This document shows, piece by piece, positions 3,635-24,879 of a stretch of DNA of 32,713 bases. The number at the start of each line of letters is the position of its first letter. Within the stretch, counting starts at the first letter, position 1. A program made the translations under genes and the position numbers. Source of the stretch: a virus; IMG/VR virus record IMGVR_UViG_3300043431_000595, positions 1 to 32,713 of that record. One strand, written 5' to 3'. A model generated the notes under the pieces. The model saw only the letters and a list, made by a program, of their open reading frames with translations, was not told where the DNA came from and searched no databases.

Positions 3635-3698
3635 TATCATCAAAAGGAGATAAGGCAAATGTACTGAATAGCCTTTTGGAAAGCGACAAAAATATTAA

Positions 3699-3899
3699 TT
3701 AACACCGACTTATAAATGTTCTCCTTTTGCTTCGCTTAGAGCGAAAGTAAGTTACTTACCAATCGCCTGCAAATGTGGCGATTGTGATGACAGTACTTGG
3801 CTATGCTACTATTGCGGGCATAGCATGACGGGTCGCGTTGTGGGAGGGATTGATGACAATGGACAGCCTGTATGTTGTTCCGAAAAAAGGATTGAATAA
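3699..3899 (+). pseudogene. zinc-ribbon ORF without a normal start codon
   Basis: The frame is open from 3699 to TAA 3897-3899 and reads like protein: ACKCGDCDDSTWLCYYCGHS, then VVGGIDDNGQPVCCSEKRIE, with CxCxxC, CxxC and CC pairs typical of a small zinc ribbon. It resembles the C-terminal half of the protein at 4711 (CYKCGDNLT...GYICSPNC). There is no ATG, GTG or TTG in frame before ATG 3825, which would miss most cysteines. ATG 3716 is in another frame and would need a +1 shift before its TAG at 3737. It is therefore a decayed gene, a frameshifted gene or one with an unusual start. Confidence 0.5.
3700..3725 (+). repeat. shared leader motif, copy 1
   Basis: TAACACC, five variable bases, then ATAAATGTTCTCCT. 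The same 26-nt motif occurs at 3911-3936 and, with one change, at 4646-4671, inside the 78-bp repeats. Each copy precedes a small gene of the cassette, suggesting a common regulatory or recombination element. Confidence 0.7.
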
Positions 3900-3964
3900 C
3901 AAAAATTAAATAACACCATTTCATAAATGTTCTCCTAATTAGTGAGATGTATGGGGTGGAAAAA
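3887..3964 (+). repeat. 78-bp direct repeat, copy A
   Basis: Identical to 4622-4699 except for one base (T at 3928 region versus G in copy B). It carries the last codons and stop of the upstream ORF (RIE-stop), the shared TAACACC/GTTCTCCT motif, and the start of a leader peptide MYGVEK. The repeat pair brackets the two-gene module 3979-4634. Confidence 0.9.
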
Positions 3965-3982
3965 ATAAAAAATGAAAAATGA
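3947..3982 (+). CDS. leader peptide coupled to the gene at 3979
   Basis: ATG TAT GGG GTG GAA AAA... encodes MYGVEKIKNEK (11 aa) and its TGA (3980-3982) overlaps the ATG of the next gene as ATGA. A matching leader (MYGVEKFEKK) exists at 4682. The frame and the ATGA junction are kept although the DNA differs after the repeat ends, which favours real translation or coupling. Confidence 0.5.
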   Translation: MYGVEKIKNEK

Positions 3983-4419
3983 CAACAACGGTAGCAAAAT
4001 ACGAACAAAGCAGGCTTTTAAAACTGTATGCGCCCGCAATGTACACGGGGGAAACTTTTTATTCAATAAAAATCCTCACGCGCAAATGCGCTGAGGATAG
4101 AATAAAAGAAATAGGCGTTTACGCCGTCGCAGATGCTGCCGTAAAATACTGCCTAAAAAGACTAGGCGAACACGGAACAGTTCTACTGAATCTTGCGACT
4201 GGCAGGCTCGAAACCCTCGTGTTCACAAGTGTCGGCACGAGGGCGAACTATTACTCCCATCATATCACGCTCTATTCGTGGGACGACTGCCTTCCCTCTG
4301 CCTTCTCGAAAGAGGAGGTGAGGACTAAAAAAGCCTTCGCGGAGGCAATTGTATTTTATATGAAATATGATTTCAATTGGGAGTGTATTAACCGTCAATT
4401 CGACGAAATTTACGAATGA
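3979..4419 (+). CDS. hypothetical protein paired with an HTH protein (toxin-antitoxin-like arrangement)
   Basis: A 146-aa soluble protein starting MTTTVAKYEQSRLLKLYAP. The centre (GTVLLNLATGRLETLVFTS) looks like beta strands and the C-terminus (FAEAIVFYMKYDFNWECINRQFDEIYE) is helical and acidic. I do not recognise the fold. Its stop overlaps the start of the Xre-type HTH gene (ATGA at 4416-4419), as in many toxin-antitoxin or effector-regulator pairs, but no toxin motif is visible. The pair is flanked by the 78-bp direct repeats, so it could be lost or duplicated by recombination. Translation is probably coupled to the upstream leader peptide. Confidence 0.7.
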   Translation: MTTTVAKYEQSRLLKLYAPAMYTGETFYSIKILTRKCAEDRIKEIGVYAVADAAVKYCLKRLGEHGTVLLNLATGRLETLVFTSVGTRANYYSHHITLYSWDDCLPSAFSKEEVRTKKAFAEAIVFYMKYDFNWECINRQFDEIYE

Positions 4420-4634
4420 TAATAGGTAAGCAATTAGCGGCATTGCGCCGCGAAAAGGGGTTGACGCAATGCCAAATGGCAGCAGAATTGGGCAAGCCAT
4501 TTTCCAAGTCCGCCATTTCGGACTTGGAAAATGGTAGATACCATTTTTCTAAGCGGCTGGCAATTTACGCGGCTTATGTCGGGCTTAAGATTGAAACGGT
4601 TGCGGTTGAAGCAACCGTTTCAAGGATTGAATAA
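4416..4634 (+). CDS. Xre-family HTH transcription regulator
   Basis: A 72-aa protein that is almost entirely a helix-turn-helix domain: IGKQLAALRREKGLTQCQMA followed by AISDLENGRYHFSKRLAIYA, with the LTQ...A..SDLENG signature of Xre/Cro-C1 repressors. It overlaps the preceding gene by 4 nt. It probably dimerises and represses the cassette, and may act as the antitoxin-like partner of the 146-aa protein. Its last codons contain a 13-bp perfect hairpin (4591-4623) and the beginning of repeat copy B, so the end of the protein (SRIE) comes from the repeat. Confidence 0.85.
   Translation: MIIGKQLAALRREKGLTQCQMAAELGKPFSKSAISDLENGRYHFSKRLAIYAAYVGLKIETVAVEATVSRIE
4591..4623 (+). terminator. hairpin inside the 3' end of the HTH gene
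   Basis: TTGAAACGGTTGC (4591-4603) pairs perfectly with GCAACCGTTTCAA (4611-4623), loop of 7. It is coding (IETVAVEATVS) and has no T-run after it, so it may be an attenuator, an mRNA 3' end or an operator rather than a classical terminator. Confidence 0.5.
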
Positions 4635-4699
4635 CAAAAATTAAATAACACCATTTCATAAAGGTTCTCCTAATTAGTGAGATGTATGGGGTGGAAAAA
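4622..4699 (+). repeat. 78-bp direct repeat, copy B
   Basis: Second copy of the repeat at 3887-3964, one mismatch in 78 positions. It again starts in the final codons of the gene before it and ends within the leader peptide MYGVEK in front of the gene at 4711. Confidence 0.9.
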
Positions 4700-4714
4700 T
4701 TTGAAAAAAAATGA
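4682..4714 (+). CDS. leader peptide coupled to the gene at 4711
   Basis: Encodes MYGVEKFEKK (10 aa); its TGA (4712-4714) overlaps the ATG at 4711 as ATGA, the same junction as the leader at 3947. Confidence 0.5.
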   Translation: MYGVEKFEKK

Positions 4715-4911: not shown

Positions 4912-4965
4912 TGATTTAGAGGTTTACGGTCATCCTTTTGAAAACCGTTTCTTACATTAGCATTG

Positions 4966-4999
4966 AAAAGCCCCTATGATTCATTTCATAGGGGCTTTT
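4966..4999. terminator. terminator, copy 1 of an inverted pair
   Basis: AAAAGCCCCTATGA (4966-4979), loop TTCATT, then TCATAGGGGCTTTT (4986-4999): a perfect 14-bp stem with A and T tails, so it can act in both directions. The 36-mer 4965-5000 is the exact reverse complement of 6743-6778; the two bracket the metallopeptidase-HTH gene. Confidence 0.9.
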
Positions 5000-5051
5000 G
5001 TCGCTTATTTACGTTGAGTTAAATCATTAACATATTATTAACACTCAAAAC

Positions 5052-5093
5052 GGAGAATTAATTATAATAATTCGCCGAATCGGTATATCTTTG
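5052..5093 (+). promoter_or_regulatory. promoter with nearby inverted repeat for the 532-aa gene
   Basis: TATCTTTG (5086-5093) is a consensus -7 box; no clear TTG is seen at -33. In its upstream half lies GGAGAATTA-attataa-TAATTCGCC (5052-5076), a 9-bp inverted repeat with one mismatch, a plausible binding site for the HTH domain of the gene product itself. The ATG follows at 5139. Confidence 0.6.
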
Positions 5094-5138: not shown

Positions 5139-6737
5139 ATGTCAAAGTATATCGAAACAATCAAAACGGAATTAACGAGTTTTTCTAACCTCGAAAATGT
5201 GATTGAAGCAATCGCTTCTACCTTCGGAAAGGAGCTTTCCGTTGAAAAACAGATGAAAAAAATCTGCCTTCTAATTTCACGCATGTGCCCATGCGACCGA
5301 GTAGTGGTTTCGGTTGCGCCGAATAGTTTGGCGGCGAATTTCGCCGCCGCGATGTACACAAAATCAATAAACTCCAATTGTCGTATCACGCTGACGAATT
5401 TCGAGGAACACCAATGGTTCCCATTTTTCCATGAATTGGGACACCATTTGCACTTCGCGCAAAATGGCATTTACGGCGGTTTCGCGTCGAATGTGAAGCG
5501 TGAAGACAAGATGCGTCACGCAGACATCGAAAAACAGTGCGACGGATTTGCGGCATTGTGTTATGCGACGTTTTTCGATGAAAAAGAAGCTGCGGCGAAA
5601 TTTGATGAGGCTCAGTCGTATGCGTCGTTTTTTTACCGACTTCCCTTCACAACCGAAATGACGGCGCAACAAACGCGCTATGCGAAATTTTCGGTTATTG
5701 AAACACCTGCCATTGAAACGCCTGCCATTGAAACCGTTATTGAAACGCCTGTTATGCCGCAAATCGGCGCAACCCTAATATCTTCGCACAATGGTTTTAC
5801 TCGGGAAGCCATTGTCACCAAGAGAACCAAGACGCAAATTGTTTGCGTCTCGAATGGCAATACCGTTCGATTGAGAAACAATGAAACGGGGTCCAAATGG
5901 CAAGAAGTAGGCAGCACAGGACACCCACGCGATGAGTGGCGGCTTGCGGAAACGGTTGTTGAAGCCGTTGAAACAATTGAAACGCCTGCCATTGAAACGC
6001 CTGCCATTGAAACGCCAACCATCGAAACGGAACGCCTTGCGGCACTCACCGCCATCCGGAAAATGGCGCGTGAGCAAGCGTTGTACCCCGTGTACGATAT
6101 TTTTCAATATCGAAATGGGCAGAAAAAGCTCCTCCATTCCTTCAACGGGCTATTGGAATGGCTCGAAAAGTACCCTGAGTATTTTCGCTCCTATTCGCCT
6201 CGTTCTGGGCGCATCCTTGTAAGTGGTATGTTATACCGTATCGCGATTGTGGAAACACCAACCATTGAAACCATTGAAAAACCAGTGGTTTCCGTAAAAG
6301 CCGAACTTGCCGCACACCTCACGCCCTTCCTACCCGAATCGAAACGGGATTTAGCTACGGCGATTGGCATTCGCCCCCCATCCCTAAGTCGTGTTCTAAA
6401 TGGCGAGCAAATGTCTTTCGATACCCTCGAAAAACTCATGTCTGAACTCGGCATTGCGTGGAGTAGTGAGCCATTCATACACGTTTGGAACGCGAAAAAC
6501 ATGCTCACATTGGATGTGGATGCGATATTTTCACATTACCACGCCCGAAAACAGGACTTTACGCCCGTTTCTGCGTGGCAGGTATGGGATGTGTGTATTC
6601 CAACGTTGGATTGGCGGCAGGCAGATTCGGCGTTTGAAACAGGCGGTATTGAGTACCGATTCGTGAAACACGGCAGAATTCGCCTGTTGGCTTCCCTTGC
6701 GCCTTCGTGTGTGTTCCATTTACAAGTAATTGAATAA
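5139..6737 (+). CDS. ImmA/IrrE-like metallopeptidase fused to an Xre-type HTH through IETP-repeat linkers
   Basis: A 532-aa modular protein. Residues 1-150 read as an ImmA/IrrE peptidase: WFPFFHELGHHLHF with H98, E99 and H102 as the zinc site, then DIEKQCDGFAAL (E131, D135), like the conserved E..A(N/D)xFAA helix. Linker 187-203 repeats IETPA. Residues 209-270 form a small beta-rich domain (IVTKRTKTQIVCVSNGNTVRL). Linker 275-297 repeats IETPA again. Residues 305-370 form a third domain, followed by a third linker (370-383). Residues 388-440 are an HTH (KRDLATAIGIRPPSLSRVLNG), and a C-terminal domain runs to 532. In ImmA/ImmR switches the protease and its repressor are separate proteins; here both modules are in one chain, so self-cleavage or cleavage in trans as a switch is an attractive inference. 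Confidence 0.8.
   Translation: MSKYIETIKTELTSFSNLENVIEAIASTFGKELSVEKQMKKICLLISRMCPCDRVVVSVAPNSLAANFAAAMYTKSINSNCRITLTNFEEHQWFPFFHELGHHLHFAQNGIYGGFASNVKREDKMRHADIEKQCDGFAALCYATFFDEKEAAAKFDEAQSYASFFYRLPFTTEMTAQQTRYAKFSVIETPAIETPAIETVIETPVMPQIGATLISSHNGFTREAIVTKRTKTQIVCVSNGNTVRLRNNETGSKWQEVGSTGHPRDEWRLAETVVEAVETIETPAIETPAIETPTIETERLAALTAIRKMAREQALYPVYDIFQYRNGQKKLLHSFNGLLEWLEKYPEYFRSYSPRSGRILVSGMLYRIAIVETPTIETIEKPVVSVKAELAAHLTPFLPESKRDLATAIGIRPPSLSRVLNGEQMSFDTLEKLMSELGIAWSSEPFIHVWNAKNMLTLDVDAIFSHYHARKQDFTPVSAWQVWDVCIPTLDWRQADSAFETGGIEYRFVKHGRIRLLASLAPSCVFHLQVIE
5697..5750 (+). repeat. 15-bp tandem coding repeat, linker 1
   Basis: ATTGAAACGCCTGCC-type units repeated in frame encode IETPAIETPAIET followed by VIETP. 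The same unit recurs at 5961-6029 and 6246-6287, so the linkers probably spread by copying within the gene. Confidence 0.9.
5961..6029 (+). repeat. 15-bp tandem coding repeat, linker 2
   Basis: Encodes VETIETPAIETPAIETPTIE, nearly identical in DNA to linker 1. It joins the second and third domains of the 532-aa protein. Confidence 0.9.
6246..6287 (+). repeat. short coding repeat, linker 3
   Basis: Encodes IVETPTIETIEKPV and joins the third domain to the HTH. It is shorter and more diverged than linkers 1 and 2. Confidence 0.75.
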
Positions 6738-6743
6738 CGACTC

Positions 6744-6777
6744 AAAAGCCCCTATGAAATGAATCATAGGGGCTTTT
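6744..6777. terminator. terminator, copy 2 of an inverted pair
   Basis: AAAAGCCCCTATGA, loop AATGAA, TCATAGGGGCTTTT. Exact reverse complement of the terminator at 4966-4999 including the loop, located 6 nt after the stop of the 532-aa gene. Confidence 0.9.
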
Positions 6778-6786
6778 CGTGTTTTA

Positions 6787-6808
6787 TACACCTATATATA
6801 TAGGTGTA
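6787..6808. repeat. 22-bp perfect palindrome with ACACCTA...TAGGTGT core
   Basis: TACACCTATAT and its complement meet without a loop. It lies 9 nt after a terminator and about 90 nt before the promoter at 6880-6907. Same core as 2209-2244 and 24837-24878. Confidence 0.7.
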
Positions 6809-6879
6809 ACAAACCGCGCAATATCAGGCATTGCCGACACTTCATATTGCACACTTCTTTCCTTCGTACCCTGTCCTTT

Positions 6880-8161: not shown

Positions 8162-8285
8162 AGATATGCTCACTGAAATTGGATGTACCCTATTGTATTA
8201 CGGAAAATGCTTTTGCGCAGCGTATTCCATTCACCTTGTATCCGATTGGATTGTAAAACAAATTGATAAAAATAATCATGTATAA
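8154..8285 (+). CDS. 43-aa small protein ending in NNHV, overlapped by next gene
   Basis: MYKDMLTEIGCTLLYYGKCF...SDWIVKQIDKNNHV. It is Cys- and aromatic-rich with a modestly hydrophobic centre. It begins at the same ATGTATAAA sequence as the genes at 8278 and 8848 and its TAA overlaps the next start (ATGTATAA), giving an 8-nt overlap. Function unknown; a membrane peptide is possible. Confidence 0.45.
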   Translation: MYKDMLTEIGCTLLYYGKCFCAAYSIHLVSDWIVKQIDKNNHV

Positions 8286-8430
8286 ATCAATAATCCTTAT
8301 TGTATTATGCCTTCTCCCCTTCGTATTAGCGGCACAAAGCAGCCAATCGTACATAGATGCGAAGTGTCAAGAGCTTGCGAGCGACGAGGCAAGATATGAA
8401 GCGGAGTTGAAACGGATTCAGCGCGAAAAG
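8271..8430 (+). repeat. about 160-bp diverged direct repeat, copy 1
   Basis: Starts AATAATCATGTATAAATCAA and covers the overlap junction and the first 51 codons of the signal-peptide protein. It matches 8841-8997 at most positions, showing an ancient duplication of this gene. Confidence 0.8.
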
Positions 8431-8490
8431 GCGACATTGCGGAAAACGATTGCGGAGTTGGAAGCGAAAGAAAATTTGAAAAACAATTAA
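8278..8490 (+). CDS. exported small coiled-coil protein (paralogue 1), spanin-like
   Basis: A 70-aa protein from ATG 8278. Residues 1-19 (MYKSIILIVLCLLPFVLAAQ) form a clear signal peptide with an ALAA/VLAA-type cleavage end. The mature part is a short Cys-containing coiled coil (SYIDAKCQELASDEARYEAE, then LKRIQREKATLRKTIAELEA). An exported coiled coil near a holin-like gene resembles Rz-type spanin components, but no lipobox or inner-membrane partner is certain, so this is only a suggestion. It is closely related to the N-terminal half of the protein at 8848. Translation is coupled to the 43-aa ORF by the ATGTATAA overlap. Confidence 0.65.
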   Translation: MYKSIILIVLCLLPFVLAAQSSQSYIDAKCQELASDEARYEAELKRIQREKATLRKTIAELEAKENLKNN

Positions 8491-8711: not shown

Positions 8712-8855
8712 ATGAAGGAATTTGCGCTGTTTCAAATCATAGATTCCATAGGCATTGGCATTGTCTGTATCCTATGGCTTTTTGAACTCTATTTCGGAAC
8801 AGTTTCAAAGTTTTTGAAACATATTTCTGAATATTTAAAAAATAATCATGTATAA
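8712..8855 (+). CDS. 47-aa single-span membrane protein ending in NNHV
   Basis: MKEFALFQIIDSIGIGIVCI and the following LWLFELYFG form one transmembrane helix, then a short amphipathic segment (KFLKHISEYLKNNHV). Like the ORF at 8154 it ends in NNHV with its TAA overlapping the next ATG by 8 nt. Pairing of a one-span membrane peptide with an exported coiled coil suggests a two-component envelope or lysis module. Confidence 0.55.
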   Translation: MKEFALFQIIDSIGIGIVCILWLFELYFGTVSKFLKHISEYLKNNHV

Positions 8856-8997
8856 ATCAATCATCCTTATTGCATTGTGCCTTCTACCCTTCGCCCTCGC
8901 TGCACAATCGCAATCGTACATAGATGCGAAGTGCGCAGAATTGGCAAGCGACGAGGCAAGAGCCGAAGCGGAGTTGAAACGCATTCAGCGCGAAAAG
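8841..8997 (+). repeat. about 157-bp diverged direct repeat, copy 2
   Basis: Second copy of 8271-8430, with the same overlap junction and signal peptide; differences are mostly silent or conservative, so both copies seem to be under selection. Confidence 0.8.
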
Positions 8998-9186
8998 TCG
9001 AAGCTGAACGCAAATCGTGTGGAATTGAATATCCAATTGTATAACAAGCAATTGACCGATTTGGAACTCAAAAAAGCAGGCGATATTGCCAAAATAGAAT
9101 CCGATTATCTACGGTCAAAGGGTGAAATATTAGCCAAAATGCAGGTTGCAACGTCCGTTTCTATGAATCCATCTTGCACCCAATAA
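8848..9186 (+). CDS. exported coiled-coil protein (paralogue 2)
   Basis: A 112-aa protein whose first 50 residues nearly match the protein at 8278 (signal peptide MYKSIILIALCLLPFALAAQ, then SYIDAKC..LASDEARAEAE). The rest is a longer coiled coil (QLYNKQLTDLELKKAGDIAK) and a C-terminal tail with a second Cys (SMNPSCTQ). The two Cys residues could form disulfides in the periplasm. Likely role: virion-independent envelope or lysis function; not proven. Confidence 0.65.
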   Translation: MYKSIILIALCLLPFALAAQSQSYIDAKCAELASDEARAEAELKRIQREKSKLNANRVELNIQLYNKQLTDLELKKAGDIAKIESDYLRSKGEILAKMQVATSVSMNPSCTQ

Positions 9187-24836: not shown

Positions 24837-24879
24837 AAAGGACTTTGTTACACCTATATAGGTGTAACAAAGTCCTTTT
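24837..24879. terminator. 42-bp perfect palindrome acting as terminator
   Basis: The left half (24837-24857: AAAGGACTTTGTTACACC plus TAT) and right half (24858-24878) are perfect complements without loop, followed by T's. It separates the 24598 gene from the capsid unit and carries the ACACCTA/TAGGTGT core seen at 2209-2244 and 6787-6808. Confidence 0.8.

Follow-up and report, generated by a model that had tools for sequence, protein, structure and literature searches.

ImmA, IrrE and CapP cut Xre repressors, and peptidase-repressor pairs or fusions provide protease-based switching of mobile elements, defence systems and toxin systems. In a 2009 survey, peptidase and Xre domain were fused in more than half of the COG2856-Xre cases (Makarova et al.), and in the same year the LexA analogy for these fusions was published, as was the proposal that they act on Xre antitoxins (Makarova et al.). 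VapB52 (Rv2515c) of M. tuberculosis, the only one among the fusions found that is reported to cut itself, is an HTH-M78 fusion whose self-cleavage with ssDNA was shown in 2026 (PMC13273310). Its HTH is N-terminal, an FR site and a cysteine switch come after it, and the protein binds a PIN toxin; the FR directly after the HTH is its proposed cleavage site (PMC13273310). IrrE and CapP share the order peptidase, HTH and GAF, with the family's own HTH. Specifically, in IrrE/PprI of Deinococcus the N-terminal zinc peptidase is directly followed by an HTH that is part of the family fold and by a GAF-like end, and the region where ssDNA binds PprI holds the HTH subdomain normally found after the peptidase. 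ImmA/ImmR of ICEBs1 and TnSmu1 likewise combine a peptidase and an Xre repressor as a mobile-element switch, but as two separate proteins, unlike the fusion described here.

We analysed a virus record of 32.7 kb (the window, that is, the full stretch of 32,713 nt) in which a single gene encodes both modules. Its product probably serves the phage as a regulatory metallopeptidase of ImmA/IrrE (COG2856/M78) type and inactivates an Xre-type repressor, either its own HTH module or another's. A peptidase-Xre fusion as such is not new and is common in Bacteroidota; what is unusual here is that the peptidase leads the chain, with the Xre HTH near the C-terminus, and that the family HTH subdomain, the cysteine switch and the FR motif were not found. 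Judged from its sequence, the protein represents a known fusion type in divergent and rearranged form. The host of the virus most likely belongs to Bacteroidota, because the nearest match of TerL is Polaribacter phage Leef_1 (25% identity) and those of the Dam methylase are Cellulophaga phage phi10:1 (43%) and a Bacteroidetes MAG (51%). A second record of the same virus (L002/G001), which carries an additional upstream primase, is 99.96% identical across the 10.4 kb overlap compared and encodes a 100% identical fusion protein.

Domain layout of the fusion protein

The gene and its parts are as follows:

5139..6737, + strand: fusion-protein ORF, 532 aa, 60.2 kDa
5139..5693, + strand: ImmA/IrrE (M78, CapP-like) zinc peptidase region, residues 1-185, from CapP, phrog_2439, phrog_87 and M78 profile matches
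5430..5447, + strand: HELGHH, residues 98-103, from the M78 profile alignment and then IrrE through the family
5526..5552, + strand: IEKQCDGFA helix, residues 130-138 (M78 profile iEkfCn, IrrE 3dte IETLCN)
5694..5750, + strand: linker 1, VIETPAIETPAIETVIETP, residues 186-204, 15-bp tandem repeat
5751..5963, + strand: segment 2, residues 205-275, no family match, low-confidence model
5964..6032, + strand: linker 2, AVETIETPAIETPAIETPTIETE, residues 276-298, 15-bp tandem repeat
6033..6248, + strand: segment 3, residues 299-370, basic (pI 10.1), alpha/beta, no family match
6249..6281, + strand: linker 3, VETPTIETIEK, residues 371-381
6339..6455, + strand: Cro/CI (Xre)-type HTH core, residues 401-439 within an HTH segment of residues 382-441 (PF13443 E 1.5e-5, PF01381 E 8.1e-5)
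6462..6734, + strand: C-terminal segment, residues 442-532, no family match

The reading frame contains no in-frame stop, as against 9-30 stops in each of the other five frames. Metallopeptidase and repressor-type HTH had been placed in one chain by the first-pass annotation, and the chain indeed bears a peptidase signature as well as the HTH: neither of the two outcomes preset against that view, no peptidase fold near H98-H102 or no HTH at 388-440, came out. Its count of five apparent domains is reasonable: besides the peptidase and the HTH there are two middle segments and a C-terminal one.

In the peptidase part, the matched core spans residues 20-139, and the best profile match to that stretch is PADLOC CapP (E 1.2e-6). 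The HTH-M78 fusion family phrog_2439 was matched with E 6.9e-7 by the whole fusion protein as query, and the phrog_87 metallo-protease with E 6.5e-4. Pfam M78 (PF06114) gave E 0.021 over residues 1-185 with 15.1 bits, below the gathering cut-off of 22, a score by which the peptidase part would be a divergent M78 member at best. Additionally, an M78 profile was built from 21 aligned HTH-M78 fusions of Bacteroidota, restricted to the peptidase region of the 17 members in which HEXXH is intact; the N-terminus of the protein scored 27.0 bits against it, compared with 9.4 for the best among 5000 shuffles, and hhalign gave a probability of 96%. A Pfam SrfB match to residues 22-98 fell below cut-off and was set aside.

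HELGHH (residues 98-103) with a downstream EKQCDGFA helix (131-138), as first reported, corresponds to the HEXXH and the third-ligand E in an ExxC/A-N/D-xFA helix of ImmA/IrrE peptidases. Specifically, IEKQCD aligns to the family's iEkfCn and the family to IETLCN of IrrE, whose Glu is E113, a zinc ligand (PMC5552922, PMC7848106), so that H98, E99, H102 and E131 align with H82, E83, H86 and E113 of IrrE. H98 and H102 are therefore predicted zinc ligands, E99 the predicted catalytic residue and E131 the predicted third zinc ligand, and by these alignments to the M78 profile and from the family to IrrE all four catalytic or ligand positions are intact. On the other hand, the M78 match extends no further than residue 139, leaving residues 140-185 unaligned, and neither the family's LLxP nor the C-terminal HTH subdomain that follows the peptidase core in ImmA/IrrE proteins was found there. 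Cysteines lie at 43, 50, 52, 81, 134 and 141 with none in 103-130; because no Cys stands between H102 and E131, the cysteine switch of the ssDNA-switched CapP and VapB52 peptidases is absent. With respect to CapP/CapH of CBASS, the match is confined to the peptidase part of CapP and leaves out its HTH and GAF parts (positions 110-242), and no CBASS gene was recognised in the window.

This divergent M78 core, with neither LLxP nor HTH subdomain, fits a reading in which the peptidase part cuts nothing and serves as a sensor or for interaction, the protein being an ordinary HTH regulator, in analogy to Rir of S. thermophilus, which blocks a repressor without cutting it despite its HEXXH (PMC7907104). 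We consider that reading improbable: the four positions are intact here, and it is among the 21 Bacteroidota relatives that some show YELGH, with the first His changed to Tyr.

The Xre-like HTH noted near residue 400 was located by PF13443 and PF01381, both of which score at or above the curated cut-off, and this Cro/CI HTH is distinct from the peptidase family's own HTH. Compared with IrrE, which shares the N-terminal zinc peptidase, an HTH, a C-terminal domain and the same HEXXH and E ligands, the fusion carries a separate Cro/CI HTH about 260 residues away, beyond two extra segments and linkers. Compared with VapB52, in which a single chain likewise holds an IrrE-type peptidase together with an Xre-like HTH, the HTH of the fusion lies near the C-terminus, FR and switch are lacking, and no PIN partner was found. 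The Bacteroidota fusions of the phrog_2439 type unite the same two domain types in one ORF, but in the opposite order; their junction is a direct [FY]R, and repeat linkers are absent from them. Thus the protein shares with the COG2856-Xre fusion regulators an Xre HTH and an M78 peptidase in one chain, and departs from their sequence of N-terminal HTH, [FY]R junction and peptidase, the order being reversed.

In 198 Bacteroidota genomes, the count of single ORFs matching both parts of the HTH-M78 fusion profile was about 45, all of them HTH-first by construction of the profile. A layout with the peptidase first and the Xre HTH last was seen at none of the six M78 loci read, a small sample of the 33 obtained from a 60-genome search. 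Whole-protein and single-domain homologue searches of viral contigs, phages, plasmids, genome contigs and 395 Bacteroidota genomes returned only the second record of the same virus, the rest being at chance level, and a search with the pattern IETPxIETPxIET likewise matched this virus only. Relatives with the same domain order, for which the first-pass annotation had called, were thus absent from the collections searched except in the same virus, and apart from that virus the protein appears to be an orphan in them. AlphaFold runs made without an alignment reached a mean pLDDT of about 44 for both protein halves; fold matches were therefore given no weight and discarded as evidence (the best-probability PDB match of the peptidase half was PprI, at 0.08). 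In the low-confidence model, HEXXH and E131 lie on successive helices.

Linkers, middle segments and possible cleavage in cis

For the activity, DNA binding, substrate and trigger of the fusion protein, we infer the following working. Made from its own transcription unit, the protein would combine the peptidase and the Cro/CI HTH with two or three small domains on flexible IETP tethers. The HTH, possibly aided by the basic segment 3, would hold it at phage or host operators. The peptidase would be activated during infection or DNA damage and would then cut an Xre-type repressor. The target may be the HTH-bearing part of the same chain or a neighbouring copy; alternatively it may be a different repressor, for example the 72-aa Xre protein whose gene lies 500 bp upstream. 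In each case the cleavage would change transcription. Cleavage in cis and in trans appear about equally likely.

Three IETP-type linkers join the parts as initially described, with exact IETP units in linkers 1 and 2 and VETPTIET in linker 3. The 15-bp tandem repeat unit that codes for them is ATTGAAACGCCTGCC. Linkers 1 and 2 have 38 nt in common (97%), in frame and 279 bp apart; recombination between them would therefore delete segment 2 cleanly. No FR or LR dipeptide occurs in the IETP linkers, the sole FR of the protein is at residue 349, ahead of the HTH, and no FR motif follows the HTH, where [FY]R stands in 17 of the 21 canonical fusions aligned. Because an FR-type site is lacking by comparison with VapB52 and the 21 fusions, the IETP linkers look like tethers rather than a substrate; of the two roles first offered for them, this comparison favours that of tethers.

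These observations bear on a strict one-protein switch, in which the peptidase would cut its own chain, in the linker or the HTH, and free the DNA-binding part. The idea itself is not new, because of the LexA analogy of 2009 and the self-cleavage of VapB52, and the long flexible tethers could let peptidase and HTH meet in cis. We nevertheless regard it as doubtful for this protein: besides the missing FR after the HTH and linkers free of FR or LR, the domain order is reversed and there is no cysteine switch. What the first-pass annotation had envisaged, a peptidase and HTH acting as a switch within one protein, is thus plausible on the precedents of VapB52 and the LexA analogy, and its proposals of the linkers as substrate and of a nearby repeat as operator (see below) are weakly supported. 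Were it such a switch, the fusion would show in compact form how a protease switch can be built into one protein. More specific still, and rather improbable in our view, is a self-cleaving one-chain phage switch of new layout, with an N-terminal IrrE-type peptidase, repeat-encoded linkers, swappable domains and a C-terminal Cro/CI HTH, which would include a trigger that works without the family HTH subdomain or a cysteine switch, and in-frame repeats that permit domain loss and gain. A reversed, linker-strung fusion that lacks the known ssDNA-sensing parts would be a test of how far control in this family needs them.

The middle segments have no copies elsewhere in the window. The low-confidence model of segment 2 is a small all-beta barrel, with weak matches to phage proteins of 69-80 aa. 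Both middle segments are foreign to ImmA/IrrE proteins and the linkers appear modular, as would suit a small polyvalent-type effector, that is, a zincin with unrelated small domains that is processed or injected early and acts against the host instead of regulating phage genes; among the domains of polyvalent proteins in phages and plasmids, zincins occur most often and probably carry out the processing of these proteins (PMC5512222). However, no polyvalent or LPD-type Pfam domain was matched in the segments, the peptidase matches the M78/CapP type and the HTH is of repressor type, and the gene lies in an early region and not beside virion genes, all of which makes an effector of this sort quite unlikely.

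The gene's flanks and a candidate partner in trans

The following features surround the fusion gene:

4416..4634, + strand: separate 72-aa Xre-type HTH protein (PF13560 E 2e-10; weak CapH E 0.003)
4966..4999, no strand: symmetric terminator-like hairpin upstream of the fusion gene
5051..5077, no strand: imperfect palindrome, proposed operator, 10/12 pairs
5086..5093, + strand: TATCTTTG, candidate Bacteroidota -7 box, fits TAnnTTTG, 46 nt before the ATG
6744..6777, no strand: terminator hairpin downstream of the fusion gene

Because no TTTG -33 box accompanies TATCTTTG and the -7 motif is not enriched in the window, it is only a candidate promoter. The inverted repeat originally read as an operator at 5052-5076 is present (5051-5077), but 16% of AT-matched 50-nt windows pair as well and the window holds no second copy, so that it stands at the level of the AT background as a single copy and its role as operator is not borne out. 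Since terminator hairpins flank it, the fusion gene is insulated on both sides, and with these hairpins and its own candidate promoter it looks like a self-contained, moron-like unit. The two strong hairpins are exact reverse complements over 36/36 nt including loop and flanks (4965-5000, 6743-6778); such a perfect inverted repeat in an invertase-carrying phage could reflect a past inversion or insertion of the fusion gene. A lysogeny switch is without direct support, because no integrase was found in the window, just one small serine invertase. Rfam RNA and tRNA searches returned nothing.

The 72-aa Xre gene, about 500 bp upstream and not weighed as a target in the first-pass annotation, encodes a candidate trans partner or substrate; its HTH has no detectable similarity to that of the fusion. 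It matches HTH_31 and, weakly, CapH and HipB-type models, and its ORF overlaps a 146-aa ORF (3979-4419) by ATGA, a toxin-antitoxin-like layout (3979-4634). The fusion may thus be the trans protease of a three-part module and cut the 72-aa protein, its own HTH merely bringing it to the same operators, in keeping with the 2009 proposal for COG2856-Xre fusions. We hold this to be a possibility on the unlikely side: DdrO is cut in a C-terminal domain that the 72-aa protein lacks, profile searches matched ORF 3979 to no toxin, and the peptidase gene, 0.5 kb distant, forms its own unit beyond an intervening terminator.

Other features of the window

A repeated leader with TTCTCCTAATTAGTGAGATGTATGGGGTGG occurs at 3690-3725, 3887-3972 and 4622-4707; it is complete before ORFs 3979 and 4711, and the 3690 copy is shorter, comprising the first part. 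Additionally, ACACCTAT occurs six times in the window (0.48 expected), always as inverted pairs that form three palindromes (2209-2244, 6781-6814 and 24837-24878), two of which directly follow a strong terminator hairpin; these palindromes are candidate binding sites of a phage regulator. A 23-nt inverted repeat (22/23; 1960-1982 and 2317-2339) lies in frame in both ORF 1696-2169 (EAMQAENA) and the serine invertase gene 2244-2831 (EAMQSENA). Inversion at this repeat would exchange both C-termini in frame; the orientation in the second record of the virus is the same. The gene at 715-1566 encodes a PAPS-reductase/DndC/SspD-like protein (Pfam E 9e-16, PADLOC DndC 9e-10), possibly for DNA modification or nucleotide metabolism. 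The genes 8263-8490 and 8848-9186 are tandem duplicates whose starts resemble signal peptides; their DNA is 85% identical over 167 nt. Finally, a perfect 52-bp direct repeat is present in two copies at 206-308, upstream of ORF 323-709, and an aligned locus (IMGVR_UViG_3300044806_000641) starts within the second copy.
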